Origin: a virus
DNA length: 27,866 bases
IMG/VR virus record: IMGVR_UViG_3300035698_028215
Location: 1 to 27,866 of that record
Direction: 5' to 3' (one strand)
Below the pieces are notes generated by a model, which saw nothing but the letters and a program-made list of their open reading frames with translations, had not been told where the DNA came from and made no database searches. Numbering within the stretch: position 1 is the first letter of the stretch; each line of letters opens with the position of its first letter. The position numbers were made by a program, and so were the translations under genes. Shown here piece by piece: positions 1-13,939 of this stretch.

Positions 1-48
1 AAAGCTGATAAGAAAGCTGATAAGAAAGCTGATAAGAAAGCTGATAAG
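1..48 (+). repeat. 12-bp tandem repeat x4, coding
   Basis: Four perfect head-to-tail copies of AAAGCTGATAAG, in frame, encoding KADK. The array may extend upstream of the window. Perfect nucleotide identity suggests recent slippage expansion. Confidence 0.9.
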
Positions 49-297
49 AAAGAATTAAAAGAACCAAAAGAAAAATCAGTAAGACAAAGAATCACTGATT
101 TGATTAAAGAACAAATGATTAAGGGGATAAGTCTTTCAGAGCTTGTCGGCCTTTTGGAAAAGGAATTTAAGTTACCTACAAAAAAGGCAAATGGTAGAGT
201 TAAGGGAAACATCCGTCGTTTTAAAAAAGAGGGAATGGAAATTACTTTGGTAATGACACAGAATGAAAGCTTCTACAGAATTAAAAAATCAATTTAA
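1..297 (+). CDS. Lys-rich repeat protein, C-terminal part (5' end outside window)
   Basis: The reading frame is open from base 1, so this is the last 98 residues of a longer gene; the TTG at 100 is not needed as a start. It opens with four perfect in-frame copies of a 12-base unit encoding Lys-Ala-Asp-Lys, then a charged linker, then a roughly 70-residue C-terminal domain. The architecture (Lys/Asp repeat, then a compact C-terminal domain) matches the protein at 12286-13026, which also has KADKK and KKDKK repeats, so the two may be paralogues. The tail has alternating helix and strand character and several basic residues, which could suit nucleic-acid binding; that is inference. The stop at 295-297 lies 5 bases before the first ribozyme-like element. 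Function unknown. Confidence 0.7.
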   Translation, partial: KADKKADKKADKKADKKELKEPKEKSVRQRITDLIKEQMIKGISLSELVGLLEKEFKLPTKKANGRVKGNIRRFKKEGMEITLVMTQNESFYRIKKSI

Positions 298-302
298 TCT
301 AA

Positions 303-365
303 TCCGAAACTCGGGCGTAGCCCGAGTCTGCATAAGATGGTAACTTATGTACTGATGAGGTAAAC
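303..365 (+). ncRNA. Type II hammerhead ribozyme-like element, copy 1
   Basis: All core elements of the hammerhead ribozyme occur in type II (stem II open) order. G12-A13-A14-A15.1 is GAAA at 306-309. Stem III is an 8-bp perfect hairpin (309-316 with 320-327) closed by a GTA loop. The GTC cleavage triplet is 326-328, so cleavage is predicted between 328 and 329. Stem I is 8 bp including one G-U (329-336 with 344-351) with a 7-nt loop. CTGATGA is 352-358. The open stem II is short: C304-C305 pairs with G359-G360. The element lies between the upstream stop at 297 and the ribosome binding site of the gene at 389. Cleavage would leave a 3' end held in stem III and a downstream mRNA starting with the stem I hairpin. 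Stem II length is the main weakness. Confidence 0.8.
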
Positions 366-388
366 TAATTTAATAAGGAGGATAAAAT

Positions 389-595
389 ATGAGTAAAACA
401 GTGGAAATCATTGTCGGTAAAGATGGGGCGATAGAAGTTTCTGCTCATGGCTTTAGTGGTACTTCTTGTGAAGAAGCGACGGAGTTTTTAGATAATTTAT
501 TTAAAAGAACCAACACTGATTACAAGGATTGTTACTATGAAATCAACGAACGAAATATTCTCGTAGACCCTGTTCCAGAAGGGCACTGCGGCTAA
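389..595 (+). CDS. DUF2997-like small protein
   Basis: A 68-residue protein with a strong ribosome binding site (AAGGAGG about 10 bases before ATG). It starts with a beta strand of the type K-T-V-E-I-I-V followed by G-x-I-E-V and the signature F-S-G-T-S-C-E-E-A-T-E-F-L, which I recognise as the DUF2997 pattern (a conserved cysteine before a helix). The family has no known biochemical function. It is repeatedly found beside DUF1257 (Ycf35-like) and Ycf46-like AAA+ ATPases; here both partners follow in that order, which supports the assignment. The start is 24 bases after the hammerhead-like element, so ribozyme cleavage would place this gene first on a processed mRNA. Confidence 0.7.
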   Translation: MSKTVEIIVGKDGAIEVSAHGFSGTSCEEATEFLDNLFKRTNTDYKDCYYEINERNILVDPVPEGHCG

Positions 596-606
596 AGGGG
601 ATTGCC

Positions 607-996
607 ATGAGCCATACATCAACATATGCTATTAAAGTAAAAGATGTCAATTTGTTTTGTAATGTTGCTCTAAATAAAGGGCACAAGGTTAATTTTTTGA
701 ATAGGTTAAATGAGCAGAGTGAGCAAACAGTTAAATTCTTTGGTTCCAATACTGTTCAGGCTGTTGCTTCTATTTCTCTTGATGGCTGGAGATATCCAAT
801 TGCTATTAATAAAGAAGGTCAAATTTCTTATGACCATTTTGGTTCTCAGCCTCATACGATGAAAAAGCTTGGTGAAGTTTTGCAAGAATATAGCACTAAA
901 CTTATTTTTCAAAACGTACCAATGGATATTGTAAAAAATTCCTTTTCTGAAAATATAAAAGAAACAGGGGCAGTAAAAATTACTCTTGTATGTTAA
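607..996 (+). CDS. DUF1257 / Ycf35-like protein
   Basis: A 129-residue protein starting M-S-H-T-S-T-Y, close to the M-S-H-F-T start typical of DUF1257 (chloroplast/cyanobacterial Ycf35-like) proteins. A central D-G-W-R-Y-P-I-A-I-N segment resembles the family's core strand. It sits 11 bases after the DUF2997 stop behind a GGGG ribosome binding site, so the two genes are probably translated together. The Ycf46-like ATPase downstream completes a known gene neighbourhood. The function is unknown in all hosts; possibly an adaptor or substrate of the ATPase (inference). Confidence 0.65.
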   Translation: MSHTSTYAIKVKDVNLFCNVALNKGHKVNFLNRLNEQSEQTVKFFGSNTVQAVASISLDGWRYPIAINKEGQISYDHFGSQPHTMKKLGEVLQEYSTKLIFQNVPMDIVKNSFSENIKETGAVKITLVC

Positions 997-1024
997 ATTT
1001 TAAAGAGTAGAAAGGACAAGTATT

Positions 1025-1174
1025 ATGGTAGAAATTAGAATCATAGCAGCAGTAGTTCACAAAAAAACAAATGAAGTTGAAATTGTAATTGAAAAGGTCA
1101 AACACGAATCAAAAAAGGCACTTGTTTCTTTTTGGATAGACTGTGAATCGGAAGTGATTATAAGAAAGCTTTAA
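1025..1174 (+). CDS. Small hypothetical protein, 49 aa
   Basis: Short ORF starting ATG at 1025 behind an AGAAAGGACAAG ribosome binding site and ending TAA at 1172-1174. The protein is one amphipathic alternation of strands (V-E-I-R-I-I-A-A-V-V, then E-V-E-I-V-I-E) ending in I-I-R-K-L. The open frame, binding site and position between two clear genes make it likely real. It ends directly at ribozyme-like copy 2, whose stem II lies at 1176-1177. No family recognised. Confidence 0.6.
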   Translation: MVEIRIIAAVVHKKTNEVEIVIEKVKHESKKALVSFWIDCESEVIIRKL

Positions 1175-1237
1175 TCCGAAACTCGGGCGTAGCCCGAGTC
1201 TGCATAAGATGGTAACTTATGTACTGATGAGGTAAAC
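1175..1237 (+). ncRNA. Type II hammerhead ribozyme-like element, copy 2
   Basis: Identical over 63 bases to copy 1. GAAA is 1178-1181, stem III is 1181-1188 with 1192-1199 and a GTA loop, and the GTC triplet ends at 1200, so predicted cleavage is 1200/1201. Stem I is 1201-1208 with 1216-1223, and CTGATGA is 1224-1230. Stem II is C1176-C1177 with G1231-G1232. It separates the DUF2997/DUF1257/49-aa mini-operon from the AAA+ ATPase. Confidence 0.8.
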
Positions 1238-1271
1238 CAAAATAAATAAATAAAAGGGGGATTATTATGAA
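1175..1271 (+). repeat. 97-bp perfect direct repeat, copy A (ribozyme plus leader)
   Basis: Bases 1175-1271 equal 3291-3387 exactly (offset 2116). The repeat covers ribozyme copy 2, the AT-rich leader, the GGGGG ribosome binding site and the first five coding bases of the ATPase gene. Confidence 0.9.
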
Positions 1272-2676
1272 GAAGATTATAAATTATTTGCGTGCAGGAT
1301 TTCCAGCCTTTTGGTTAAAAACTTCTGAACCAAATAGAGTACGAAAAAATGTCTATGAAATGCTCCGTTCTTTTGAAAGAAAGGATGGGGGAAAGTATGA
1401 AATTATGGAGTGGACATGTACTGCTGAACCGAACCCAATGAAGACCTTAGAGCAGTTTAATAATGCAGAAGATTTTACTCTTTTGTTTGCTTATAACTTT
1501 CATTGGTATGCGGATAAACCACAGATAATTCAAACTATACAAGATAACCTTGCTTCATGGGCAAGCGCAGGAAAGGCAATTATTTGTGTTTCTCCAGTGG
1601 AAAAGATTCCGTTGGAATTACAGAAAGATTTTTTGTTGCTTAATTTGCCATTGCCAAATGAAGTAGAGATATCAGACGCCATTAACCATGTCGCTCCAAA
1701 TTCAAAGGTAATTCCTAAGGGTGACAGTCTTACTCGTTTAATATCGTCATGTAAGGGGTTTACAAGAGTGGAACTGGAACAAATCTTGGCCTTGTCTTTT
1801 GTAGAAACAGAAGGCAAATCATTTTCAAGAAAAACTATTAATGATTACAAGGCTATTACAATTCGCAAGACTGGTTTTCTTGATGTCTTGGAACCGACCA
1901 CAAATTTTTCAAATATAATCGGGTACAAGAATATTAAGAAGTTTATTATGGGAACAATTAATAATCCAAAGTCAAAAGGAATTATGACGATTGGTCCTCC
2001 AGGATGCGGCAAGACTGCTCTTATGAAAGCAGTTGTCGGCGAAACAGGAAAGTTTGGATTATCTATCAATATGGGAAAATTGTTTAGTAAGTATCAAGGA
2101 GAAACGGACAGTAATATAGATACTGTAATTAATCTTATTACGGCAATCGGTGATTGCCTTGTTCTTATCGATGAATTTGAGAAACAATTTGCTGGTTCGG
2201 GGTCAGACGGTTCATTGGATAGTGGAACTACACGAAGAGCGACAGGCCGTTGGCTTGACTTTCTTCAAGATCGTCCAAAAGGGGTTTATATTGTTGGAAC
2301 AGCAAATTCCTTTTCTGGTATTCCTGGAGAATATATCAGACCAGGTCGTTGGGATACATCTCCATTTTTTATTGATTTGCCGACAGATAATGTTAAAGAT
2401 GAGATTTTAAAATATTATGCTAAGAAGGCCGGATTAAGTCTTCCAAAAAGATGGAGAAGGGATTTAATGAAGGATTTTTCAGGGGCAGAAGTTGAAGCAT
2501 TAGTTCATATCGCTGATATGAGGGGAATTGGTTTTGAAGAAGCTGTTAAATGTATTATACCTCAGGCCAAAACAATGGCTGAGAATATTAACGGGTTGCG
2601 GGATTGGGCAAAAGGCCGAACAATCCCTGCTGAGGAAATCCAGTTTAATAATGGCAAAAGGCAATTAGATATTTAA
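1267..2676 (+). CDS. AAA+ ATPase, Ycf46-like
   Basis: A 469-residue protein with an N-terminal domain of about 215 residues that is not a classical ATPase fold by motif, followed by a AAA+ module. Walker A G-P-P-G-C-G-K-T is at residues 243-250, Walker B L-V-L-I-D-E-F-E around 299-305, the sensor-1 region V-G-T-A-N near 345, and R-P-G-R-W-D with the arginine fingers near 358-361. Length, the single AAA+ domain and the neighbours fit the Ycf46-like group, which occurs with DUF1257 and DUF2997. The ATPase probably remodels a protein or protein-DNA complex; the substrate is not known. Start ATG 1267 follows a GGGGG binding site. The ribozyme-like elements before and after would release it as a monocistronic mRNA. 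Confidence 0.85.
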   Translation: MKKIINYLRAGFPAFWLKTSEPNRVRKNVYEMLRSFERKDGGKYEIMEWTCTAEPNPMKTLEQFNNAEDFTLLFAYNFHWYADKPQIIQTIQDNLASWASAGKAIICVSPVEKIPLELQKDFLLLNLPLPNEVEISDAINHVAPNSKVIPKGDSLTRLISSCKGFTRVELEQILALSFVETEGKSFSRKTINDYKAITIRKTGFLDVLEPTTNFSNIIGYKNIKKFIMGTINNPKSKGIMTIGPPGCGKTALMKAVVGETGKFGLSINMGKLFSKYQGETDSNIDTVINLITAIGDCLVLIDEFEKQFAGSGSDGSLDSGTTRRATGRWLDFLQDRPKGVYIVGTANSFSGIPGEYIRPGRWDTSPFFIDLPTDNVKDEILKYYAKKAGLSLPKRWRRDLMKDFSGAEVEALVHIADMRGIGFEEAVKCIIPQAKTMAENINGLRDWAKGRTIPAEEIQFNNGKRQLDI

Positions 2677-2686
2677 TTTTAATCTT

Positions 2687-2750
2687 AACCGAAACTCGGG
2701 CGTAGCCCGAGTCTGCATAAGGTTGTTCCTTATGTACCGATGAGGTAAAC
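2687..2750 (+). ncRNA. Variant hammerhead ribozyme-like element, copy 3 (C at core position U4)
   Basis: Same architecture as the other copies: GAAA 2691-2694, stem III 2694-2701 with 2705-2712, GTC ending at 2713, stem I 2714-2722 with 2728-2736. Two changes stand out. The stem I apex has gained a G-C pair with a new TTGTT loop, keeping the stem intact. The core heptamer reads CCGATGA (2737-2743) instead of CTGATGA, which replaces the nearly invariant U4. Stem II gains a third pair (A2688-T2746 beyond C2689-C2690 with G2744-G2745). Catalysis may be weak or lost. Confidence 0.65.
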
Positions 2751-2769
2751 AATTAATAAGGGGGATATT

Positions 2770-2970
2770 ATGGAAAAACCGAAAGAAACTCCGACAGTAA
2801 AACTTGTTGGGGAAAGCAGCAATGTCTTTGCAATTATGGGAGTTGTTACTAAAGTCTTAAAAGACGCTGGTGCTGATAAGGAATATATTGACCAGTATTT
2901 AAAAGAGGCAATGGACGGAGATTATGACCACCTGCTTGGCGTAACAATGGAATATGTTAATGTTACTTAA
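2770..2970 (+). CDS. Small conserved-type phage protein, 66 aa
   Basis: Starts ATG 2770 behind AAGGGGGAT. The core reads V-K-L-V-G-E-S-S-N-V-F-A-I-M-G, then a helix V-T-K-V-L-K-D-A-G-A-D-K-E-Y-I-D, then G-D-Y-D-H-L-L. I associate this pattern with small proteins common in bacteria and phages near replication or ATPase genes, but I know no established function. It is the first gene after ribozyme-like copy 3 and leads a mini-operon with the 68-aa and 28-aa ORFs. Confidence 0.65.
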   Translation: MEKPKETPTVKLVGESSNVFAIMGVVTKVLKDAGADKEYIDQYLKEAMDGDYDHLLGVTMEYVNVT

Positions 2971-2981
2971 GAGGAAATAAA

Positions 2982-3188
2982 ATGAAAGAGTTTAAATGTC
3001 TTTATTTTGGTCAATTCAATTGGTATGGAGAAGTTCATAAAATTTGGACTTCTGCAAAAAATTCAGTAATTGCTCACAGACAATTCATTGTCCAATTAGC
3101 AAGAACATTAAGGGTATCTGAAAGTAAAGTTCGATATTATTTTAATGGAGATAAAGATAATTATAAAATTACAAAAGATGAGAGGTAA
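2982..3188 (+). CDS. Hypothetical protein, 68 aa
   Basis: Starts 11 bases after the previous stop, behind AAGAGGAAATAAA. It has an aromatic N-terminal third (Y-F-G-Q-F-N-W-Y-G) and a helix-turn-helix-like stretch near residues 30-55 (Q-F-I-V-Q-L-A-R-T-L-R-V-S-E-S-K-V-R-Y-Y-F). The latter could bind DNA, but that is only a pattern resemblance. No family recognised. Confidence 0.6.
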   Translation: MKEFKCLYFGQFNWYGEVHKIWTSAKNSVIAHRQFIVQLARTLRVSESKVRYYFNGDKDNYKITKDER

Positions 3189-3194
3189 GGAACA

Positions 3195-3281
3195 ATGCTA
3201 AAACAAATGCTTAAAGAATTATGTAAATATTCTTCGATTCTTATTTTAATCGTTTTATTTCTTTTTTTAATTCTTTATTAA
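3195..3281 (+). CDS. Small membrane peptide, 28 aa
   Basis: ATG 3195 is 6 bases past the previous stop, with GGTAAGGAACA as its binding site; stop 3279-3281. A short polar N-terminus (M-L-K-Q-M-L-K-E-L-C-K-Y) precedes about 16 uninterrupted hydrophobic residues (I-L-I-L-I-V-L-F-L-F-L-I-L-Y), a single predicted membrane helix. Too short for homology; supported by spacing, ribosome binding site and composition. Confidence 0.45.
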   Translation: MLKQMLKELCKYSSILILIVLFLFLILY

Positions 3282-3290
3282 AAGAGGATA

Positions 3291-3353
3291 TCCGAAACTC
3301 GGGCGTAGCCCGAGTCTGCATAAGATGGTAACTTATGTACTGATGAGGTAAAC
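3291..3353 (+). ncRNA. Type II hammerhead ribozyme-like element, copy 4
   Basis: Identical to copies 1 and 2 over 63 bases. GAAA 3294-3297, stem III 3297-3304 with 3308-3315, GTC ending at 3316 (predicted cleavage 3316/3317), stem I 3317-3324 with 3332-3339, CTGATGA 3340-3346, stem II C3292-C3293 with G3347-G3348. It precedes the DUF3150-like gene. Confidence 0.8.
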
Positions 3354-3387
3354 CAAAATAAATAAATAAAAGGGGGATTATTATGAA
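3291..3387 (+). repeat. 97-bp perfect direct repeat, copy B
   Basis: Exact copy of 1175-1271, including the leader, GGGGG ribosome binding site and the first five coding bases of the next gene. The identity stops inside codon 2. Confidence 0.9.
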
Positions 3388-4252
3388 AGAGAATCAATTA
3401 AAAGAAGGTGTTTTTTGTAGTTTGAAAATGGGTCGTTGGGATGCTATTATTAAGATGCCAAGTAAACATTTTGGTAAAAGAATACCACGCGAAATAGTTC
3501 GAGCAAGACAAGATATTATTAGTGACAGAACTTACCTTAAAGATTTGAGTACGATTCGTAGGTCGGCTAAAGGCTTGCTTCTTCGGAATTCTTTACCTTT
3601 TCCAATTGATAATGTTTTCTGGATTCCAAAAGAGAAAATTGTTGAAGTCGATAAAAAACTCAACGAGTTTCGAGAGGAGTACAAAAACAGAGTGAAGATT
3701 TTGTGCGACAATATAAAAGAAATGGAAAGTAATTTTCAGGAGCAGTATCCTGAATTTTATGACAAAAAGAATTATCCATCAATTCCAGGAATCAAAAACA
3801 AGTTTTATTTTTTCTGGAACTTTTTACATTTTGCCGCTCCGTCTAAAGAAGCCAAGACCCTTTCGCCTGCCCTTTACAAAAGGGAACAGGAAAAGTTCAC
3901 GCAAATGATTTCCAAAATGGAAGAAATGACGATCAATGTCGTGGGAAATATGCTGTTCAAGCGAATTGAAAAATTAGCTGGACAATGCGACAGTGGTAAA
4001 ATCAATGCTGGTACGGTCGGGTCTATTAGCAAGTTTCTAAAAAGATGGGATGGCCTGTGGAAAGATCATGTAGACGAAAAAAAGTTACACACTATTATGA
4101 AAGATTTACAAAAACAGATGAGGGGGACAAGTGCTGAAAGACTTAAAGGGAATGAAGACTTTCGAAACAAGCTTGGCAATAAGTTAGAAAAGATTATTGG
4201 AAGCCTTCAGAAAATCCCCGACTTTAAGTTAAAAAGAAAACTTGATATATAA
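3383..4252 (+). CDS. DUF3150-like protein
   Basis: A 289-residue, mostly helical protein. The segment around residues 50-135 (a D-L-S-T-I-R-R-S-A-K-G-L-L-L-R motif, then W-I-P-K-E-K-I-V-E-V-D-K-K-L-N-E-F, then a long helix ending Q-E-Q-Y-P-E-F) resembles DUF3150, a family found in phages and bacteria next to MoxR/AAA+ ATPases. That association agrees with the Ycf46-like ATPase two operons upstream. The C-terminal half is Lys-rich and probably helical or coiled-coil. No catalytic motif is visible. It may be the ATPase's partner (inference). Start ATG 3383 uses the same duplicated GGGGG leader as the ATPase, so both genes may be translated at similar rates. Confidence 0.55.
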   Translation: MKENQLKEGVFCSLKMGRWDAIIKMPSKHFGKRIPREIVRARQDIISDRTYLKDLSTIRRSAKGLLLRNSLPFPIDNVFWIPKEKIVEVDKKLNEFREEYKNRVKILCDNIKEMESNFQEQYPEFYDKKNYPSIPGIKNKFYFFWNFLHFAAPSKEAKTLSPALYKREQEKFTQMISKMEEMTINVVGNMLFKRIEKLAGQCDSGKINAGTVGSISKFLKRWDGLWKDHVDEKKLHTIMKDLQKQMRGTSAERLKGNEDFRNKLGNKLEKIIGSLQKIPDFKLKRKLDI

Positions 4253-4275
4253 TGGATAAGGTTTTCAATTCGCTT

Positions 4276-4320
4276 CAACTTCACCCAAACCACTTCAAAT
4301 ACTTGGTTTGGGTGAAGTTG
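4276..4320 (+). other. 17-bp perfect stem-loop after the DUF3150-like gene
   Basis: Bases 4276-4292 and 4304-4320 are perfect inverted repeats with an 11-nt loop (4293-4303). It follows the stop at 4252 by 23 bases. No U-run follows directly, so it is not a classic intrinsic terminator. A smaller 6-bp hairpin (CTTGTA/TACAAG) follows at 4321-4344. Possible roles are 3'-end protection, an RNase III site, or termination. Confidence 0.7.
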
Positions 4321-4450
4321 CTTGTAGGAACCTTTCGTTACAAGGACTCAATGAATAAAAAGCTTTACTTTATATTAAGAATATATTAAGAATCATTTAT
4401 TATTTTAATCTTTTAAAGAGGATATAATCGCGTAACAAAAAGGAGGCGTA

Positions 4451-5005
4451 ATGTCAAAGTTAGCAAAAAACAATTTATTCAAATGTATATATTGTACTTT
4501 CTGGTCTAAGTCTGCCGTTATAAGAAGAGATACAGACAGCGATTCTTCTAAGAAATCTAAACATCGTATGATTACTCGTGTTTGCCCTATTGCTAAGAAA
4601 AACATAACAGCCGATTCGAATAGCTGTGAATATTTTTCTCCCTCAAGCAATTTTTATTGTGATAAAAATAATTGTTTCATGCCCTTTATCGCCTGTCTAA
4701 ATAGACGACGAAATCAAAAAAGTTTCGATGGATTTAGTAAGTGTTCTAAGTGTAGACAGTTTGATAGAGATATCAAATTAATTATAAGAACCTATTGGCT
4801 CAATTGTAAAAAAATATTAATTCCTAAAGGATTTGCGAAAGAGAAAGAAGTAGAAGAAGTAGAAGAGGAAAAACATATAAAGAGAAGAAGTAAAAAGCCT
4901 ACACCACCCGAGTCAAAAAAACAGCTTAAGAGAAGAAGTAAAAAAATTGAGGAGCCGAAAATAAAACCAAAAAGAAAAAAGCTAAAAAGGAGGAATAAGA
5001 AATGA
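4451..5005 (+). CDS. Cys-rich zinc-finger-like protein with basic tail
   Basis: A 184-residue protein behind AAGGAGG. Nine cysteines lie in the first 101 residues: C12-x2-C15, C45, C59, C70-x4-C75, C82, C98-x2-C101, enough for two zinc sites. After residue 125 comes an acidic stretch (E-V-E-E-V-E-E-E-K) and then a Lys/Arg tail with repeated K-R-R-S-K-K blocks, separated by a P-T-P-P-E-S linker. Basic tails like this usually contact nucleic acid; that and the zinc sites suggest a DNA- or RNA-binding protein (inference). It ends in an ATGA overlap with the membrane ORF downstream. No family recognised. Confidence 0.65.
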   Translation: MSKLAKNNLFKCIYCTFWSKSAVIRRDTDSDSSKKSKHRMITRVCPIAKKNITADSNSCEYFSPSSNFYCDKNNCFMPFIACLNRRRNQKSFDGFSKCSKCRQFDRDIKLIIRTYWLNCKKILIPKGFAKEKEVEEVEEEKHIKRRSKKPTPPESKKQLKRRSKKIEEPKIKPKRKKLKRRNKK

Positions 5006-5199
5006 TTCTTTTTATCAAAATTTTAATAGCCTTTCTAATTGGAGTAATAATTGCTTCTATAATCAACTACGGAATTAATTTTATAATGGATTCTTATTAC
5101 CGAAAGAAGCAAATTAAAAGATGGAAGAATGCAACCAGAATAGAGAGAGAAGAGTATAAAGAGGAGTATGGTTATTATCCACCAGGATGGTATTGCTAA
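5002..5199 (+). CDS. Small single-pass membrane protein, 65 aa
   Basis: Starts inside the previous gene (ATGA overlap), behind AAAAGGAGG, so translation is coupled. Residues 1-29 form one hydrophobic helix (I-L-F-I-K-I-L-I-A-F-L-I-G-V-I-I-A-S-I-I). A charged tail with E-R-E-E-Y-K-E-E-Y-G-Y-Y-P-P-G-W-Y-C follows and is probably cytoplasmic. Function unknown. Confidence 0.65.
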   Translation: MILFIKILIAFLIGVIIASIINYGINFIMDSYYRKKQIKRWKNATRIEREEYKEEYGYYPPGWYC

Positions 5200-5220
5200 A
5201 ACAAAAGGAGGAAACTTATC

Positions 5221-5430
5221 ATGATGCAACAAAAAGTAGAAGTAATGAACTTTAATCGGGAAAGGAAAGAAGTAGAATTAAAAGACTTTTCAATTGGTCT
5301 TTCTTGCCATACTTGTGGTTCTGTAGATTGCATTTTACGAATTGATGCTTGTAGAACTCCGGCATATAACGACTTTCTGTGTTCTCTTGTATGTAAAAAC
5401 TGTGGGAGTATCGAAGTCATTGATGCTTAA
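5221..5430 (+). CDS. Small zinc-ribbon-like protein, 69 aa
   Basis: Preceded by AAAGGAGGAAAC. Two C-x2-C knuckles, C29/C32 and C58/C61, each followed by G-S, frame a short domain, the layout of a zinc ribbon. Extra cysteines are at 37, 44 and 54. No catalytic motif. Likely a nucleic-acid or protein interaction module; target unknown. Confidence 0.6.
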   Translation: MMQQKVEVMNFNRERKEVELKDFSIGLSCHTCGSVDCILRIDACRTPAYNDFLCSLVCKNCGSIEVIDA

Positions 5431-5454
5431 AGAATAATCTTAAATAGCTTTAAG

Positions 5455-5473
5455 TTGTAGAGTTAACTTCAAA
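5455..5473 (+). promoter_or_regulatory. 19-bp sequence recurring inverted at 23733 (operator candidate)
   Basis: TTGTAGAGTTAACTTCAAA lies in the leader of the gene at 5495. Its exact reverse complement is at 23733-23751, also just before a gene. The core AGTTAACT is palindromic and the flanks are imperfectly symmetric, as in operators for dimeric repressors. No extended -10 motif is visible nearby here. Confidence 0.4.
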
Positions 5474-5494
5474 CAAGAAAGAGGAGAAAATACA

Positions 5495-5863
5495 ATGCCA
5501 AAAAAAGTTGTAAGTGCTAATTATCTATCTGCTTATGAAATTCTGTTCGGTCAATGGCTTCGAGTTGACCCCTGTGACTACTATGAAGAAGAAGAAGATG
5601 GTGCTCCTTTATATAATAATGAATTGACCCCTGTTGCCCTTCTTCTAAAGGAAGAATCATGGCGAGATTTAAGTCATGAAGCAAAAGAAATGATAACCGT
5701 AATTCTTAATTCTCCTGCAGAAATATTAAATTTAATGTCTACTTCCAAAACCAAAAGAATAACAAAAAGAAATGTCAGAAAATATTTTTATAATGTCTGG
5801 AAAAGTACATTCATTACAGACTTAACGATTAAAGAAATATCGGGATGGGTTGATGGATTATAG
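5495..5863 (+). CDS. Hypothetical protein, 122 aa
   Basis: Starts ATG 5495 behind AAGAGGAGAAAATACA. The N-terminal half is acidic (Y-Y-E-E-E-E-D-G). The C-terminal half has a basic patch (K-T-K-R-I-T-K-R-N-V-R-K-Y-F) followed by helices. It overlaps the possible upstream starts of the helicase gene, so the two are probably co-translated. No family recognised; position suggests a replication accessory role, which is inference only. Confidence 0.6.
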   Translation: MPKKVVSANYLSAYEILFGQWLRVDPCDYYEEEEDGAPLYNNELTPVALLLKEESWRDLSHEAKEMITVILNSPAEILNLMSTSKTKRITKRNVRKYFYNVWKSTFITDLTIKEISGWVDGL

Positions 5864-5873
5864 AAGGGATAAA

Positions 5874-7265
5874 ATGGAAACTAAACCAACAATAGAAATT
5901 CTTGACGTAGTTCATTGTAAAGCAGATTTGAAAGCTCGAGAATTATTACTTCCAATTTTAAAGTACGAATCGACTATGTGGAAGAAAACTCGTTATGGAG
6001 GAAGAAGTCCTAAAATAGTTTCTTCGCATCTTATTACTGGTAGACAAGGAACTGCAGGAACTTTCTTAACTGGATTACTTCCAAGAATTAAAAAAGAGTT
6101 AGGAGATAAAATAAGTATTGTTGGTCAGGAAGAAAAGATTATTCCAAATAAAAAAGCTCATGTTCCTGGGATAGTCTTTCGCCCTGACCAGAGCAAGGCA
6201 TTAAGGAAAGCCAGAATAACTCCTCGGGGGAAAATTGTTTTTCCAACCGGAAGTGGAAAGACAATTATTGCATTGGGGATAATGTCTATGTTTCTTAATT
6301 ATAGAATATTATTTTTGTGTCATACTACAGATTTAATAAGCCAAACAAAGATAGAAATCGAAAAGAGATTTGATTCTAATTTTTATATTATCGGGGCTGG
6401 GTACAAAACCAAGTGGGAGAAGTTCTGTAATTTAAAAGAAGTAATTGTGCTGAGTACTATACAAAGCTTTTCTAATATCCCATCAAAAAAATATAGTGCC
6501 TTTTTTGATTTGGTTATTATAGACGAAGAGCATCATCTCAATTCTCTTGATAGCCAATATGGTAAGGCCATGTCTTCTAATCTCGCTCCTCGAAGATACG
6601 GGCTTACCGCTACCGAATCAACAGGGCAGAAAGAAAAACTTATTAATGAAGGATTGCTTGGTCCGGTCATTTCTGAATTAACGATACAGGAAGGGATCAA
6701 GAAAAAAATAGTAGCAAAGCCCGAAATTAAATTAGTACCTGTACCTTTTGATCCAAAGATAAAAATCGAATGTAAAAATAAATATGTGAATTACTATCAG
6801 TATGGGGTCATAGAAAACGAAGCTCGCAATTCGCTTATCGTTAATGAAGTACAAGAGAGTCTAAAGAAAAAAGAGATAGTACTAATCATAATAGAAAGAA
6901 CAGAGCATGGACGTATTCTAAAAAAAATGTTAAAATATAAACATATAAAGGTTCGTTTTGTTTATGGTGCTACGGATAAAGAAGTTAGAACAAAGATAAA
7001 AGAAAGGTTGAAGTCTGGAAAATTAAGAGTTGCAATCTGTTCTCGTATATGGAAAGAGGGAACAAACATTCCTTCTCTAAATAAAATCATAAATGCTTGT
7101 GGGGGAAAAGAAGAAAAAGGAGTTATACAATCTATTGGTAGAGGGCTTCGTATAACAGAAAATAAAACCACCGTAAAATTAGTTGATATGTTAGACCCTT
7201 ATCCTTACCTTGCCGAGCATGCTATTGAACGAATACAAGTTTATATAAACCAAGGCTGGATATAA
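5874..7265 (+). CDS. Superfamily 2 DNA helicase (UvsW/type III restriction helicase-like)
   Basis: About 463 residues from ATG 5874; starts at 5853 (ATG) or 5850 (TTG) are also open, overlapping the previous gene. Numbering from 5874: an N-terminal domain of about 90 residues, motif I F-P-T-G-S-G-K-T at 123-130, motif II D-E-E-H at 217-220, motif III-like G-L-T-A-T-E-S near 243, and motif VI Q-S-I-G-R-G-L-R at 419-426. Two RecA-like domains are therefore complete. The DEEH box and compact size fit phage UvsW-like branch-migration and recombination helicases. It should act on forks or R-loops, next to the primase and with the recombinase at 25500. The stop lies in a triple 13-bp tandem repeat that leads into the primase gene. 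Confidence 0.85.
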   Translation: METKPTIEILDVVHCKADLKARELLLPILKYESTMWKKTRYGGRSPKIVSSHLITGRQGTAGTFLTGLLPRIKKELGDKISIVGQEEKIIPNKKAHVPGIVFRPDQSKALRKARITPRGKIVFPTGSGKTIIALGIMSMFLNYRILFLCHTTDLISQTKIEIEKRFDSNFYIIGAGYKTKWEKFCNLKEVIVLSTIQSFSNIPSKKYSAFFDLVIIDEEHHLNSLDSQYGKAMSSNLAPRRYGLTATESTGQKEKLINEGLLGPVISELTIQEGIKKKIVAKPEIKLVPVPFDPKIKIECKNKYVNYYQYGVIENEARNSLIVNEVQESLKKKEIVLIIIERTEHGRILKKMLKYKHIKVRFVYGATDKEVRTKIKERLKSGKLRVAICSRIWKEGTNIPSLNKIINACGGKEEKGVIQSIGRGLRITENKTTVKLVDMLDPYPYLAEHAIERIQVYINQGWI

Positions 7266-7292
7266 AGGCTGGATATAAAGGCTGGATATAAA
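7254..7292 (+). repeat. 13-bp tandem repeat x3 at the helicase/primase junction
   Basis: Three perfect copies of GGCTGGATATAAA. The first carries the helicase stop codon and the last ends at the base before the primase ATG. It makes up the whole intercistronic spacer, and no normal Shine-Dalgarno is visible inside. Confidence 0.9.
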
Positions 7293-8198
7293 ATGGAAAT
7301 AAAAGAATTCTTTGACGACCACGATATTAGATACTGGGAAGACGGAAAGAATGTTGGACGGGGCTGGATAAATATCCAATGTCCTTTTTGTGATGATACA
7401 AGCAACCATATGGGAATAAGATTAAAAGACCTTTATGTTTCTTGTTGGAGATGCGGGCACCATAATTTATTTGATTTGATAAAAGAATTGACTGGCCTTA
7501 ATAACTACGAAACGAACAATATAAAAAAGGCATTATCTCCAGAGGAAGGTAGCAATCCTCCTTTAGAACAGAGTACTTCACCAATACTTAACTTAAGAGC
7601 CACTCTTCCTCTGGAGTCTACAACATCATTTTCTAAAAAGCATATTGCCTATTTAAAGAAAAGGGGATTTACTCCACCAGAATCTTTTATTGAAAAATAT
7701 AAATTACGGGCGGTTCATGAAATAGGAGATTATAAATTTAGGATTGTGATTCCGGTTTATATGAATAGAAAATTGGTATCGTTTAGTACACGAGATATAA
7801 CAGATCTTCAAGACCCAAAGTACTTGAGTAATTCTCTTATTGAAGGAATGAATATAAAGCATGCTGTTTATAATTATGATAAAATAATTCCTAACTCAGA
7901 TATTATCTTAGTAGAAGGACCGCTTGATGTCTGGAAGTTTGGTGTAGGTTCTTGTTCTTTGTTTGGAGTTTCTTGTACTTCAAAACAAATCATCGCTTTA
8001 AAAAATAAACGTATTAGAAATTTATTTATTTTATTTGATAATGATTTGACAGGAGAACGGGGTGCAGAAAAAATTTCATCTATGTTATTGCCTATTGTAA
8101 AGAAAATAGAAATAATAAGTTTGACAGAAGTAAATGATCCAGGAGAACTTTCGTTAGAAGAAGCAGAAATAATAAAATACAAATTGGGGATAAAATAA
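7293..8198 (+). CDS. DnaG-type DNA primase
   Basis: A 301-residue protein. The N-terminal zinc-binding module has C30-P-F-C33 and C51-W-R-C54, as in CHC2-type zinc fingers. After a linker of variable composition (about 75-110) comes the TOPRIM catalytic domain: E208-G-P-L-D212 and F-D249-N-D251, the metal-binding residues. It is shorter than bacterial DnaG (about 600 residues) because no C-terminal helicase-binding domain is present, as is usual for phage primases. It should make RNA primers at the fork with the DnaB-like helicase at 9897. The ATG follows the 13-bp repeat directly, so translation may rely on coupling to the helicase gene. Confidence 0.9.
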   Translation: MEIKEFFDDHDIRYWEDGKNVGRGWINIQCPFCDDTSNHMGIRLKDLYVSCWRCGHHNLFDLIKELTGLNNYETNNIKKALSPEEGSNPPLEQSTSPILNLRATLPLESTTSFSKKHIAYLKKRGFTPPESFIEKYKLRAVHEIGDYKFRIVIPVYMNRKLVSFSTRDITDLQDPKYLSNSLIEGMNIKHAVYNYDKIIPNSDIILVEGPLDVWKFGVGSCSLFGVSCTSKQIIALKNKRIRNLFILFDNDLTGERGAEKISSMLLPIVKKIEIISLTEVNDPGELSLEEAEIIKYKLGIK

Positions 8199-8362
8199 AA
8201 AAACGAAACTTCTTATTGACCTTTTAAGCGGCATTAAAAATTTAGGTTAAGGATATATATTAAAAAAAGTAGAAGTAAGGTTATTTCAGTCAATGCGGAA
8301 GCCTGATATATGTTTATAAGTTAAATCTAAACCTTAAAAACAAGCTATCGTAAAACAAAAGT

Positions 8363-8384
8363 AAAAGAAGTAGAAAAGAAGTAG
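8363..8384 (+). repeat. 11-bp tandem repeat x2 before the interrupted ORF
   Basis: Two copies of AAAAGAAGTAG plus a partial third, directly before the AAAGGAG binding site of the ORF at 8403. One of several short tandem duplications at gene junctions in this window. Confidence 0.8.
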
Positions 8385-8402
8385 AAAAGAAAGGAGAAGT
8401 AA

Positions 8403-8630
8403 ATGAAAACAAAGATGGATATAGACCGGCATAAACGATGCTTAAGAAATTAAATTAATTACACAGAATATTTAAAAAAAGAACGGAATAGATTACAAGA
8501 GAAAATAAACTATCTGGAGAAAGACCAATTTTTCTATGAGCATCAAATAAAAACTGCGATTGAAAAAAAGAAAACGGGTTTTGATAGAGAGATTTTTAAA
8601 AAAGAAAGTCAAAACGAATTAAAAAAATAA
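8403..8630 (+). pseudogene. Interrupted small coiled-coil ORF (in-frame TAA)
   Basis: ATG 8403 follows a good binding site (AAAGGAGAAGTAA). The frame stops at TAA 8451-8453 after 16 codons but continues open to TAA 8628-8630. The distal part encodes a charged heptad-like helix (Y-L-K-K-E-R-N-R-L-Q-E-K-I-N-Y-L-E-K) typical of a small coiled-coil protein. The binding site and protein-like distal frame suggest a once intact 75-codon gene broken by one nonsense change. A sequencing error is also possible. Confidence 0.45.
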
Positions 8631-8665
8631 AATAAAAATGCGAACGAGGGAATATACAAATAAAA

Positions 8666-8798
8666 ATGGCATTGAGAGGAAGAACATCTTTATTTATAAA
8701 GAATCCAATTAGTTGAAGAGGACATTCAAAAGCTCGGTCACGAAAAAACCTCCATGCTTGTCCCTATATACCTGCGCCCGCTCGTAAAAAATAAATAA
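8666..8798 (+). pseudogene. Possible frameshifted small ORF remnant
   Basis: ATG 8666 reads 16 codons to TGA 8714-8716. The +1 frame from about 8703 then reads protein-like sequence (L-V-E-E-D-I-Q-K-L-G-H-E-K-T) to TAA 8796-8798. Joining the two with a single-base shift near 8703 gives about 44 residues. Weak: there is no clear binding site and no family. Confidence 0.25.
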
Positions 8799-8826
8799 AT
8801 AAGCTACGCTTATTTTATTTTTTTAT
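8791..8826 (+). terminator. Probable intrinsic terminator
   Basis: A stem of about 8 bp (8797-8804 with 8808-8815) with a TAC loop is followed by ATTTTTTTAT. The A-rich left flank mirrors the T-rich right flank, so it could work on both strands. Confidence 0.55.
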
Positions 8827-8870
8827 ATTAAATAATAATAATATAATTACTATATACTAATATATTAAAA

Positions 8871-8925
8871 GAACCACTCGCTTCGCTCCGTGGTTCCACG
8901 ATTTTCGCTTTCGCTCCAAATCGTG
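8871..8925 (+). repeat. Twin stem-loops with near-identical loops
   Basis: Two abutting hairpins: 8871-8877 with 8890-8896 (7 bp) and 8897-8904 with 8918-8925 (8 bp). The stems differ but the loops match, TCGCTTCGCTCC and TCGCTTTCGCTCC. The reverse complement of the second loop's core recurs inside the tRNA-like gene at 11858-11869. Confidence 0.7.
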
Positions 8926-8982
8926 TTTCTAATTTTTTATTTGTTTGAATAAAGGAGTAAATAAAAGAAGGAAAAATAAATT

Positions 8983-9900
8983 ATGAAAAAACAAAATGAT
9001 TTAAAACTTAGAGTAATTCCACCATTAAATGTTTTATTAAAAGAACCATTAATTGGCAGTGGAAAATTATCAAGAAGAATAACAGTAAAACCTTTTAAAT
9101 TCAAAAATGGGAAAATGGGAAAATGGGAAAAGAATATTTCTTATACAAATATGTTTCATTCAAAAAATAATTATTTTCCTACTTCCGGATTAAGGAAAAA
9201 TACTTCTAAACCAATTAACTTTGAAACTTCTTCTGCGAGGATAATTTTTTATTACTGGAACAATATTGGACATCCGTTTATTCATCATAGACCAGAATTA
9301 AATAAAACCACATCAATTGCTTTAGAAAGAATAAATAAAAATTTTAAAAAATACGGAAAAGAAAAAATACTTTTTAGCATTGATCTTTTATCAAAAGTAT
9401 TTAATGCTGATTGGTTCAAATACAGAATCCTTTTTTCTAAAAGAAAAATAAGTCTTCCAGATTTTTTTAGATACGATAAAAATAAAATGAGTTTTTTTAA
9501 TAAAAATGATTCTGGAATTCCCGTGTCTTGGTTTCAAGAATGTTTACGTGGAGAAAGTTATCTTTCTGAAAAATACACGATAAAGATAAAAGATAAATAT
9601 CCAGATATTACAAAAAGGATTAAGGCTATTTGGAAGGAATTTATAAAATATGATAAAATAAATACTGGCGATATTAATCAATTTGTTTTATGTAGTAAAA
9701 AGCTTTTCTCTTTTGGTGAGAAAAATAAAATTGATTGTCTTGTTCTTATAGATCTTATTGACGGGATGTTGAATAGGGCAAAAGACTTTAAACCAAAGCA
9801 TGCTGGTTACCTCTCCAATAAAATTTTTTGGGAACAACAAATTCCTAATGAACTTGTTAGAACTAATCTTGTTTTAGATAGGAGTAAACTAATTCTATGA
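8983..9900 (+). CDS. Hypothetical protein between primase and helicase, 305 aa
   Basis: A very Lys- and Asn-rich basic protein. Near residues 40-50 the coding sequence contains a short tandem AAAATGGG repeat, read as G-K-M-G-K-W-E-K. No catalytic motif or zinc cluster is visible. It ends in an ATGA overlap with the DnaB-like helicase, so the two are translationally coupled. The middle segment (H-P-F-I-H-H-R-P-E-L-N-K-T) could belong to a winged-helix or replication-initiator fold, but I cannot show that. By position and coupling the best guess is a helicase loader or replication initiator; this is inference from context. Confidence 0.6.
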   Translation: MKKQNDLKLRVIPPLNVLLKEPLIGSGKLSRRITVKPFKFKNGKMGKWEKNISYTNMFHSKNNYFPTSGLRKNTSKPINFETSSARIIFYYWNNIGHPFIHHRPELNKTTSIALERINKNFKKYGKEKILFSIDLLSKVFNADWFKYRILFSKRKISLPDFFRYDKNKMSFFNKNDSGIPVSWFQECLRGESYLSEKYTIKIKDKYPDITKRIKAIWKEFIKYDKINTGDINQFVLCSKKLFSFGEKNKIDCLVLIDLIDGMLNRAKDFKPKHAGYLSNKIFWEQQIPNELVRTNLVLDRSKLIL

Positions 9901-11516
9901 TTATGAGAAAGAAAGTAGAAGACAATTCTGAGTTTTTAGTTTTGTCATATATGATCATGAATACTTCCGTACTTTTTTCCGGCTATTCCAGATATAAATC
10001 GGGACAGTTAAAAACGAAACACTTTACAAAATATTTTCAACCAATCTTCCGTTGGTTGATTAGATACCATGCACAACATCATAAAGCACCTGGGCGTACA
10101 ATCCAAAAAGTCTTTGAAGAGAAAAAGAAAAATTTATCAAAAGGGGATTGTGAAATAATAGATGATTACTTAGATCGTCTTGCTGAAGAGTTTATTCTTT
10201 ATCAAGAAGATTCGGTCGATCCTGCTTATATTCGTAATGAAGTTTTGTTAGACTTTATAAGAAAGAGAGAAATATCTGAAAGAATATTGAAGGCACAAGA
10301 TAAGATAGACAAAGGACAATACGAAGAAGCAGAAAAAATTGTATCAACGTATCCTGTATTAAACAAGAATGAAGAAGATGAGACCCTTGGGACGATTATT
10401 CCATACTCAAGCGAAGATCTCGTTAATCATGATGAATCTCATAGTGCGGCTGACGTTGCTTTTCAGTTTGATGGTGATTTGCATCACATGGTTGGTTCGC
10501 TTAATAGGACATGGCTTGTTGCTATAACGGGAACAGAGAAAACCGGTAAGAGTTATTTTCTTCAGGAAATGGCTTTTCAGGCGGCACTTTATCAAAGGAA
10601 AAAAGTTCTAATAATAAATCTGGAACTTGGCGAAAGTATTGTTAGAAACAGAACAAGAAGAAGGCTTACACTTACTACAAATAAAAAGCGGTCACAGAAA
10701 GTAATCTATCCAGTTTTTGATTGTGAAAATAATCAGAATGGGACTTGTAGAATTTTAAGTACCTTGAAAAATAAAAAAGGATTATTTAAAGATAGTACGG
10801 AAGTTGTTGACTTTATGAATCGGGAAGGCTGGAAAGTTTGTACTCAGTGCAGAAACGATCCTAATATTCGCAGAAATGCTGCTTCTTCTAAAAGATTCAT
10901 TCCTACAATTTGGTTTGACAAAACAAGAATTATGCCAATATCAAATGGAAGAGTTGCTAAAGCCATTAATAGAAATAGAATGACTGGGCTTTCTAATTTA
11001 AGAGTAAAATGCTTTCCGAGATTTTCCGTTACTTTTGATGAAGTTTATGATTATGTTCGTCGTTATGTTGACAGAACTGGTTGGGTTCCAGATATAATTG
11101 TTTTTGATTATTTGGATATTCTTGCACCTGAAGCTGGTAATTTACAGGAAAGAATTGATGTTGATAGAAAATGGAAGAAGGCCGCAAGAATGGCAGGAGA
11201 AATGAACTGTCTTGTTCTTACTGCTGATCAAGCTACAAAAACCAGTAGAACTCAGTATGCTTTAGATCAGATGTCAACTTCAGAATCTAAAACAAAAGAT
11301 TCTCATTTAGATGTTCGCCTTGCAATTAATCAAACCGATGATGAGAAAGAATTGAATATCACAAGAATGAATGTTTTATTTCATAGGCATATTATGTTTA
11401 GTGTTAAACACGAAGTTCTTATAACACAGAGGCTGGTTACGGCAGAACCAATGGTTGACAATTCCAGACTTTTCTTCCGTGGGAAAAAATATAGATTATC
11501 TGGAACTTCTTTTTAA
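9897..11516 (+). CDS. Replicative DNA helicase, DnaB-like
   Basis: A 539-residue protein. Residues 1-160 are helical, as in the DnaB N-terminal domain. The RecA-type core has Walker A G-T-E-K-T-G-K-S at 212-219 and Walker B I-I-V-F-D404-Y-L-D-I-L. A later segment L-T-A-D-Q-A-T-K-T-S-R matches the DnaB H3-like loop. Between Walker A and B is an insertion of roughly 80-90 residues with C276, C284, C315 and C318, a likely zinc finger not found in typical bacterial DnaB. It should unwind the fork with the primase at 7293. Start ATG 9897 overlaps the upstream stop (ATGA). The stop at 11514-11516 is directly followed by the first tRNA promoter. Confidence 0.85.
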   Translation: MIMRKKVEDNSEFLVLSYMIMNTSVLFSGYSRYKSGQLKTKHFTKYFQPIFRWLIRYHAQHHKAPGRTIQKVFEEKKKNLSKGDCEIIDDYLDRLAEEFILYQEDSVDPAYIRNEVLLDFIRKREISERILKAQDKIDKGQYEEAEKIVSTYPVLNKNEEDETLGTIIPYSSEDLVNHDESHSAADVAFQFDGDLHHMVGSLNRTWLVAITGTEKTGKSYFLQEMAFQAALYQRKKVLIINLELGESIVRNRTRRRLTLTTNKKRSQKVIYPVFDCENNQNGTCRILSTLKNKKGLFKDSTEVVDFMNREGWKVCTQCRNDPNIRRNAASSKRFIPTIWFDKTRIMPISNGRVAKAINRNRMTGLSNLRVKCFPRFSVTFDEVYDYVRRYVDRTGWVPDIIVFDYLDILAPEAGNLQERIDVDRKWKKAARMAGEMNCLVLTADQATKTSRTQYALDQMSTSESKTKDSHLDVRLAINQTDDEKELNITRMNVLFHRHIMFSVKHEVLITQRLVTAEPMVDNSRLFFRGKKYRLSGTSF

Positions 11517-11535
11517 AACGTGTTATAATATAAAT
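11505..11535 (+). promoter_or_regulatory. Extended -10 promoter, copy 1
   Basis: TGT-TATAAT (TG at 11521-11522, -10 at 11524-11529) within TTTTTAAAACGTG...ATAAAT. No good -35 is present. It begins at the DnaB-like stop codon and reads into tRNA-like gene 1. A near-identical block is at 11693-11724. Confidence 0.7.
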
Positions 11536-11544
11536 ATTGGAGAA

Positions 11545-11656
11545 ATTGATGGGGTGGTAGAATTGGTAATGCACGATCCACAGGGTCGATCTGATTGGTT
11601 CAAATCCGGCGATATTCTTTAGGCAAGCAGTACGGGTTCAAATCTCGTCTTCATTA
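11545..11656 (+). tRNA. tRNA-like gene 1, degenerate or oversized
   Basis: A D-arm-like stretch (GGTAGAATTGGTAATGC) and a well-formed T-arm (11632-11648, ACGGG/CTCGT around TTCAAAT) are followed by CTTCATT and A73. The acceptor pairs only 5 of 7 (two T-T mismatches). The anticodon hairpin 11574-11588 has a 5-bp stem but only a 5-nt loop. A second GGTTCAAATCC box lies at 11597-11607, so about 35-40 extra bases sit between anticodon arm and T-arm. It could be a decayed tRNA, one with an insertion, or two superimposed 3' halves. The anticodon cannot be assigned. It is transcribed from promoter copy 1. Confidence 0.4.
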
Positions 11657-11692
11657 GTTCCTCTATTAATTATTTTTTAATTAGCTGTAACT

Positions 11693-11724
11693 TTTTTTTA
11701 AAACGTGTTATAATATAAATGTTG
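11693..11724 (+). promoter_or_regulatory. Extended -10 promoter, copy 2
   Basis: Same AAAACGTGTTATAATATAAAT block as copy 1, -10 TATAAT at 11709-11714 with TG at 11706-11707. It lies 19 bases before tRNA-like gene 2. Confidence 0.7.
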
Positions 11725-11732
11725 AGAAAATT

Positions 11733-11932
11733 GCTAAGGTAGCGGGATTGGTAAACAGGATATTTTTCAGAATATCTTTTCGAAGTGTTTATCATTGGTA
11801 ACCGATTCTATAATAACCAAAAGTTTGTAAGTTTGCTATGGAGTATGAAGGTGGAGTGGAGCGAAAGCGTTGAAGCGATGAAGCCGAGAGGACTAACAAA
11901 ACTTATTGCAGGTTCGAATCCTGTTCTTAGCA
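11733..11932 (+). tRNA. tRNA-like gene 2, Leu-like, with about 130-nt extra segment
   Basis: Ends match a tRNA well: acceptor GCTAAGG (11733-11739) pairs 7/7 with TCTTAGC (11925-11931, one G-T), with A73 at 11932. The T-arm is GCAGG/CCTGT around TTCGAAT (11908-11924). The 5' half resembles bacterial tRNA-Leu (GCGGGATTGGTAAAC). The anticodon hairpin 11759-11776 has a 5-bp stem and an 8-nt loop TTTTCAGA; CAG (Leu) follows a U33-like T, but the loop is one base long, so the reading frame of the anticodon is uncertain. D-stem pairing is poor. Bases 11777-11907 are far too long for a variable arm (normally under 25). No group I intron core is recognised. Confidence 0.5.
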
Positions 11933-13141: not shown

Positions 13142-13939
13142 ATGGCAAAAACATTAAAGAAAAAAGATAATATTTTCAAAACGAAATCTTTCCTTAGAAT
13201 ATTAAAGGAAATTTATTTGGGCGGATTGTTAGAAGAATGTATGGTATCTATAAACTATGGGAGGGCAAAAGTAGAAGCAGTAGATATTACCAATTCCCTT
13301 ATCGTTATTTGTAAGGGTGCTGTTGCTTCTAAAGACGTAAGCGGCCAGTTAGGACTTGGAAATTTAGATCTTCTTATTAAGTTCTTATCTTCAGTAGAAG
13401 ACCAGAAACTCTTTTTTAAATACAAGAAGGACGGGTCAAGCTTTGAACTTTCAAGAAAAGATAAACGAAGAAAACTGAATTACTTATTAACTCAGCCAGA
13501 ACTAATCGCTACTCAGTTACAGGTAGATGAGGATTCTGATGATAAGGAAGACCCTTACTTAAAGATGAAGAAGATGATGGAGTATAATGTAGAATTATCT
13601 GCTTCATTCATGAAAGATTTTCTTACGTATATTGGCCTGTTAAAAACGAAGGATGTCGTTCTTGAATTTGATGGGGCTGAGGAAATTGCTTTTATTTGTG
13701 GTGGATCAAATGACCATAAGTTTGAATTGGTATTAAGTAATGAAGTAGAAGGAGATGAAGTAGACCCATTTAGTCTTAAGGTTAACGGAGAACATCTTGC
13801 TCGAATTTTTAATACGATTGGTTTTGATGAAGATGAACCACCAGTATTATCTTTTGCAGAAGAGAAACTTATAATGATAGAAGCTGAAGGTACGGTTTGG
13901 GCTCTTGTTCCGTTAACTGATTTGGAAAATGAAGATTAA
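13142..13939 (+). CDS. Sliding clamp (T4 gp45 / PCNA-like)
   Basis: 265 residues from ATG 13142, chosen over an upstream TTG at 13115 because GGAGGG at 13125-13130 fits it and 13115 would start next to the terminator stem. The protein shows two repeats of an alternating strand/helix fold: F-L-R-I-L-K-E-I-Y near the N-terminus and F-M-K-D-F-L-T-Y-I-G-L-L near residue 165. There is an acidic interdomain region (D-E-D-S-D-D-K-E-D). Length and repeat layout fit gp45/PCNA trimeric clamps (about 230-270) rather than bacterial beta (about 370). The clamp loader follows 11 bases later, the same order as in T4-like phages. It should tether the DnaE-type polymerase at 20343. Confidence 0.75.
   Translation: MAKTLKKKDNIFKTKSFLRILKEIYLGGLLEECMVSINYGRAKVEAVDITNSLIVICKGAVASKDVSGQLGLGNLDLLIKFLSSVEDQKLFFKYKKDGSSFELSRKDKRRKLNYLLTQPELIATQLQVDEDSDDKEDPYLKMKKMMEYNVELSASFMKDFLTYIGLLKTKDVVLEFDGAEEIAFICGGSNDHKFELVLSNEVEGDEVDPFSLKVNGEHLARIFNTIGFDEDEPPVLSFAEEKLIMIEAEGTVWALVPLTDLENED

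Follow-up and report, generated by a model that had tools for sequence, protein, structure and literature searches.

Arrays of type II hammerhead ribozymes between the genes of a phage operon as probable sites of mRNA punctuation

Introduction

Why would a phage repeat one ribozyme-like RNA ahead of gene after gene in the same operon? The question is raised by the window analysed here, one complete IMG/VR virus fragment of 27,866 bases, whose first 3.4 kb contain four elements of the type II hammerhead ribozyme (HHR-II; hammerhead is abbreviated HHR), all on the + strand. Clustered HHRs flank genes in prophages, where processing of polycistronic transcripts has been proposed, and they cleave both in vitro and in E. 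coli (Perreault et al. 2011, PMC3088659). The role of prokaryotic and phage hammerheads is an acknowledged open question (PMC6155905). A preliminary description of the window had recognised the four elements as HHR-II, had considered their repetition inside an operon unusual, and had named a short stem II as the weak point of the assignment.

Results

The type II fold descriptor matches exactly four elements in the whole window, and in its strict form (stem III of at least 6, stem I of at least 6 and stem II of at least 2 pairs) it finds 4 there versus 4 sites in total in 200 first-order Markov shuffles (∼0.02 per window). Copy 1 (304-367, + strand) is base-paired from 304 to 360, with a pseudoknot tail to ∼367. 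Its stem II, CC/GG (304-305 with 359-360), is followed by GAAA (306-309), stem III (309-327), a predicted cleavage site at 328^329, stem I (329-336/344-351) and the core CTGATGA (352-358), and UGGU (338-341) can pair with ACUA (364-367), one pair being a G-U. Copy 2 (1176-1239, + strand; base-paired limits 1176-1232, tail to ∼1239) and copy 4 (3292-3355, + strand; limits 3292-3348, tail to ∼3355) have predicted cleavage sites at 1200^1201 and 3316^3317, the core CTGATGA at 1224-1230 and 3340-3346, and UGGU/ACCA pseudoknots (1210-1213 with 1236-1239; 3326-3329 with 3352-3355); the two copies are 98% identical across 103 nt, ribosome-binding site included. Copy 3 (2689-2752, + strand; limits 2689-2745, tail to ∼2752) is a variant with the core CCGATGA (2737-2743; U4C), a predicted cleavage site at 2713^2714 and a UUGUU/AACAA pseudoknot (2723-2727 with 2748-2752) that is compensatory relative to copies 2 and 4. 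These limits bear out the places first proposed for the four elements, and the 5'-OH ends then predicted, at 329, 1201, 2714 and 3317, are the same positions that the fold yields.

All four copies have GAAA, GUC and a stem III of 8 bp (A15.1-U16.1 counted); in copies 1-4, stem I measures 8, 8, 9 and 8 bp and stem II 2, 2, 3 and 2 bp. Stems I and III are closed and stem II is open, the arrangement that defines the class. Copies 1, 2 and 4 combine the core C3UGANGA...GAAA with H17 at the cleavage site, while copy 3, with CCGAUGA, was filed as a variant. The order of strands and motifs given in the preliminary description is correct except for CTGATGA, which copy 3 lacks. U4C is seen once more in the lineage (in G006), as well as in G013 and G029, and this recurrence hints that the core change is tolerated; copy 3 may be weaker given the substitution, and its activity is uncertain.

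A covariance check had been suggested at the outset. The Rfam model RF02276 (hammerhead type II; gathering score 37 bits) scored three of the four copies above threshold (copy 1, 38.2 bits; copies 2 and 4, 39.3 bits each) and gave no match to copy 3 in a search of 1-4200 that admitted E values up to 10; with its U4C, this copy departs from the RF02276 family in falling below Rfam detection. A lineage covariance model, R1, was built from 8 gap-poor lineage HHRs, a training set that lacks copy 3 but includes a sister copy from the same phage. R1 detected all four window copies, at 83.5 (copies 2 and 4), 81.4 (copy 1) and 67.0 bits (copy 3, E 1.5e-15). The pattern CTGATGAGGTAAAC alone is too short, and its matches are mostly expected by chance. 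RNAalifold returned no structure on the MAFFT alignments A4 and A5 because gaps split the hairpins, and the gap-poor subset was therefore used. Across these 8 HHRs and 20 pairs, pseudoknot included, 98.8% of cells were paired and 14 of the 20 pairs showed changes on both sides, a result as high in 0 of 500 shuffles, although several of our statistics count related copies. Covariation is present in all four helices, the pseudoknot among them. Rfam, the independent lineage model and this four-helix covariation support the identification of the window elements as type II hammerheads.

The tertiary contact between the stem I loop and the stem II side is a pseudoknot in about 40% of HHRs, and in most of type II. 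In the window copies, loop I can form 4-5 bp with the 3' tail, as UGGU/ACCA in copies 2 and 4, UGGU/ACUA in copy 1 and UUGUU/AACAA in copy 3, and the pairing, which had no part in finding the copies, covaries between them and among relatives. For 49 distinct loop/tail pairs drawn from six phages, loops paired with their own tails scored 10.5 versus 8.4 ± 0.36 with swapped tails (0/5000), and likewise 0/5000 when tails were swapped solely within genomes; most of the signal is contributed by G003 and G006, whose loops vary, and in G001, G002, G004 and G005, taken singly, the loops hardly vary. This resolves the doubt about stem II, which is indeed just 2-3 bp but normal for the class: the 3' tail forms a covarying pseudoknot with loop I. 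Two-bp stems are common in natural type II ribozymes, with one case of one bp, and most of them can pair loop I with nucleotides 3' of stem II (Perreault et al. 2011, PMC3088659). Like RF02276 and the ribozymes of that study (PMC3088659), the window elements run from GAAA through stem III, GUC and stem I to CUGAUGA, leave a stem II of 2-3 bp open, and have the pseudoknot and a phage context.

When the stem III sequence was searched for exact matches, one other contig turned up, a longer one from the same phage that has additional copies upstream. A protein search with the AAA+ ATPase added five relatives at 49-67% identity; querying phage records for near-identity to window 1-9000 gave nothing. 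The longer contig carries 8 HHRs and the five related phages 7-15 each: RF02276 matches number 7, 9, 4, 10, 8 and 14 in G001-G006, rising to 8, 9, 7, 11, 8 and 15 with descriptor-only copies. Within each record the HHRs occupy one strand and one stretch, except for wrap-around at the record ends of G004 and G005. The relatives G004 and G005 (L283, L284, L285, L286) also hold HHR-II variants in which, unlike in the RF02276 family, one additional base separates A9 from stem II (CUGAYGAUGG); their loop I is a near-invariant GUGGUG. The HHR copies of G002 (L281, 11276-18037) draw on two versions of stem III and two of stem I, and all four combinations are present, which suggests recombination or gene conversion between copies.

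Scoring covered 56 of the 58 HHRs, two falling outside the criteria (32240-32305 in G003, and a long copy in G006, 11420-11507). CUGANGA is kept in 54 of the 56, the remaining two having CCGAUGA, and C17 likewise in 54. The records are fragments and the gene calls near HHRs are simple ORF calls; on these calls, 39 of the 56 begin 0-6 nt past a stop codon (median stop-to-HHR distance 2 nt) and 10 lie at least 28 nt downstream of the nearest one. From the HHR end to the start codon, ATG in 54 of the 54 starts found, the distance is 24-45 nt, and predicted cleavage falls 67 ± 4.5 nt upstream of the ATG. In the window, every copy is followed 24-34 nt downstream by an ATG with a Shine-Dalgarno sequence, which confirms the earlier placement just 5' of ribosome binding sites.

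Unrelated phages also have arrays (G013, 11 HHRs by descriptor; G039, 9 by Rfam), most of whose HHRs again start 0-6 nt after stop codons; homologues of twelve window proteins were undetectable in the regions fetched. No HHR was detected in four cultured phages whose AAA or DUF3150 homologues are distant, and cellular genomes yielded no DUF3150 relatives. One cultured phage with a weak DUF3150 relative, Tunturiibacter phage Tunturi_3 (L294), has an annotated RNA 2'-phosphotransferase and an RNA ligase; an RF02276 match is absent from it.

The ribozyme is placed ahead of about half the operon's genes. In the window, on the + strand, copy 1 precedes the gene for a 68-aa DUF2997 protein (389-595, starting 28 nt past the copy), copy 2 that for a 469-aa AAA+ ATPase (1267-2676, 34 nt), copy 3 that for a 66-aa protein (phrog_1933; 2770-2970, 24 nt) and copy 4 that for a 289-aa DUF3150 protein (3383-4252, 34 nt). 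The 129-aa and 49-aa genes (607-1174, + strand) lie within the array with no HHR ahead of them; before the 129-aa gene, and before the next shared gene after DUF3150 (window 4451), no element was found in ten relatives. The AAA slot contains a structured element in 10 of 10 phages, an HHR in six, where protein identity goes down to 49%, and another element in four. The DUF3150 slot holds an HHR in five phages, another element in four and a plain hairpin in G005; the DUF2997 slot holds an HHR in four and another element in four. Gene content between HHRs differs among relatives. In G006 (L287, minus strand), a phage with an HHR array, the DUF2997 slot is occupied by a non-HHR hairpin (13168-13270 of the reverse complement).

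Sigma-70 promoters and intrinsic terminators were both considered as the repeated element and rejected. In each of the six HHR phages, promoter-like scores in the AAA and DUF3150 slots were no better than those of shuffled sequence, and these are therefore not promoter units; near-consensus sigma-70 promoters were seen upstream of the next shared gene (window 4451) in 3 of 10 phages. No terminator-like site (GC hairpin plus U run) was found at any HHR in 1-5000. From gene order and the lack of promoters, the HHRs appear to sit within one transcription unit.

Elsewhere in the window, a repeated promoter-like unit (TAAAACGTGTTATAATATAAAT) at 11495-11569 and 11680-11754 stands ahead of two tRNA-like sequences, with a third such site at 23700; 11548-11656 scores 28.8 bits with the Rfam tRNA model versus a cut-off of 29. 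A DNA polymerase III alpha subunit with a C-terminal uracil-DNA glycosylase superfamily domain (Pfam) is encoded at 20343-23702.

A profile search yielded four more relatives, G054-G057, in which no HHR was detected by RF02276 or by R1. These sister phages have other hairpin-rich intergenic RNAs ahead of successive genes, with a Shine-Dalgarno sequence close downstream (∼18 in G057, 13 in G055, 12 in G056 and 8 in G054), and searched singly these elements matched no Rfam family at its gathering score. In the AAA tree, G054 pairs with the HHR phage G003 (99/97) and is thus nested in the HHR clade; the slot label, HHR or other element, has therefore changed at least twice. In G054 (L311), HHR slots are filled by near-perfect hairpins of 17-21 bp that resemble RNase III substrates. 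The elements of G055 (L312), G056 (L313) and G057 (L314; for example L314:9569-9655, minus strand) share a different order: a strand A near the stop codon, which it overlaps or abuts in G055 and G057, then a hairpin H1 of 10-17 bp, a strand B, a short loop and a strand A', the second hairpin sharing its pairing partner with strand A. This second hairpin outscores base shuffles in all three phages. Pairing of A with B, compared with swapped partners, gave 0/500 in G056 and a weak 23/500 in G055, and strand A is nearly constant in G057.

Discussion

In our view the elements are probably type II hammerheads that act in cis, each cleaving itself and so splitting a long phage mRNA at a point between two genes, a form of RNA punctuation. 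Copies 1, 2 and 4 are likely active because clustered HHRs were found to cleave in vitro and in E. coli (PMC3088659). Cutting after C17 would leave the upstream mRNA ending in the stem III hairpin (GUC with a 2',3'-cyclic phosphate), and the downstream mRNA would open with a 5'-OH and the stem I hairpin and pseudoknot, ∼60 nt before the start codon. The cistrons of one operon would thereby be separated, each gaining a uniform 5' leader and 3' end that are structured and resist decay, and expression could be set for every gene separately. We infer cleavage and its consequences for end structure, decay and expression from the fold, core, pseudoknot, position, covariation, slot conservation and slot replacement seen in the sequences. 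Against punctuation count the core change in copy 3 and the pseudoknot of copies 1, 2 and 4, which has just 4 bp, one of them a G-U in copy 1. In one assayed ribozyme, shortening a 6-bp pseudoknot to 4 bp cost ∼20-fold (PMC3088659). Compaction of the genome can also account for HHRs lying next to stop codons.

Other explanations start from the same observations. A ribosome ending translation of the upstream gene would cover a GAAA strand lying 0-6 nt past the stop codon, and the element could then act as a translation-coupled switch, cutting only once upstream translation had ended or become sparse. The 39 stop-adjacent HHRs, the like position of most HHRs in unrelated arrays and the stop-overlapping or abutting first strand in G055 and G057 would all fit such coupling; yet phage genes are tightly packed regardless, and the 10 HHRs at least 28 nt past the nearest called stop codon do not suit it, so that we regard it as unlikely, if credible. 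The near-identical HHR-RBS units might instead allow exchange or duplication of gene cassettes, ribozyme activity being secondary. Such recombination junctions would account for the near-identity of copies 2 and 4 through the ribosome-binding site, for the shuffled stems of G002 and for the variable gene content between HHRs, but core and pseudoknot pairing survive sequence divergence and recombination alone needs neither, which makes this reading improbable.

If the ribozymes had decayed and were retained solely as mRNA-stabilising hairpins, stems I and III would shield ends without cleavage. The other hairpins of sister phages and the core change in one window copy agree with this; we nevertheless find it very improbable in view of CUGANGA and C17, each kept in 54 of 56 related HHRs, and the covarying pseudoknot. 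Finally, HHRs flank single genes or short blocks, and pairs of them might excise single-gene RNAs that are then ligated or circularised; such a flanking arrangement yields circles in viroids and retrozymes. An RtcB ligase match was found in 0 of 12 records searched, and spliced or circular products were sought by Perreault et al. and none found (PMC3088659), which leaves excision highly unlikely here.

Punctuation by self-cleavage, the reading we prefer, has counterparts in known systems, and the repetition noted at the outset proves less unusual than supposed. In the clustered prophage HHRs of C. scindens, A. caulinodans and the A. tumefaciens ardA locus, individual genes or short runs of genes belonging to one transcription unit are bordered by several HHRs (PMC3088659), and what we found is alike: multiple HHRs share a strand and border genes of an inferred single transcription unit. 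The A. tumefaciens cluster is a triple arrangement (PMC3088659), whereas the phages here have 7-15 each. Beyond the clustered prophage HHRs, the ribozyme is here kept before orthologous genes across divergent phages and replaced by other RNAs in their sisters. The ribozyme family and its clustering in prophages were thus already known (2011), while the array size, the fixed geometry, the conservation of gene slots across divergent phages and the exchange of HHRs for other structured RNAs in sisters are new by the standard of the literature that could be searched; openly licensed papers yielded no account of HHR arrays this large.

Structured intergenic RNA also divides a phage polycistronic mRNA at the RNase III sites between T7 early genes. 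Cleavage there is protein-dependent, unlike that of HHRs, and the 17-21 bp hairpins of the G054 type look closer to the T7 sites than HHRs do. RiboJ, a synthetic insulator, was engineered from a satellite-virus HHR and an added hairpin. Like the phage elements it lies upstream of a ribosome-binding site and is expected to standardise the 5' leader, but it is not an operon-internal array. Clifton et al. (2018, PMC6206723) report that, placed in a 5' UTR, it increases protein in E. coli by 2-10 fold.

Since these slots are occupied in sister phages by hairpin RNAs of another kind, the comparisons suggest that selection preserves what the slot does, probably processing or protection of ends, and not the hammerhead itself. 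With a per-gene array, fixed distances, orthologous slots and sister swaps, the idea of mRNA punctuation becomes directly testable. The array also points to candidate new RNA elements, because earlier ribozyme classes were discovered by such association with known ribozymes and neighbouring genes. We hold it doubtful, though worth stating, that the slots are interchangeable RNA-punctuation sites in which the G055-G057 elements would stand in for the hammerhead as an RNA class not yet described that cleaves itself or processes itself in some other way. Within strand A of G057 (L314) lies ATTGAAAC, a sequence with which CRISPR repeats commonly end at the 3' side; the match to CRISPR-DR2 is far below the cut-off, and the likeness is probably a coincidence.
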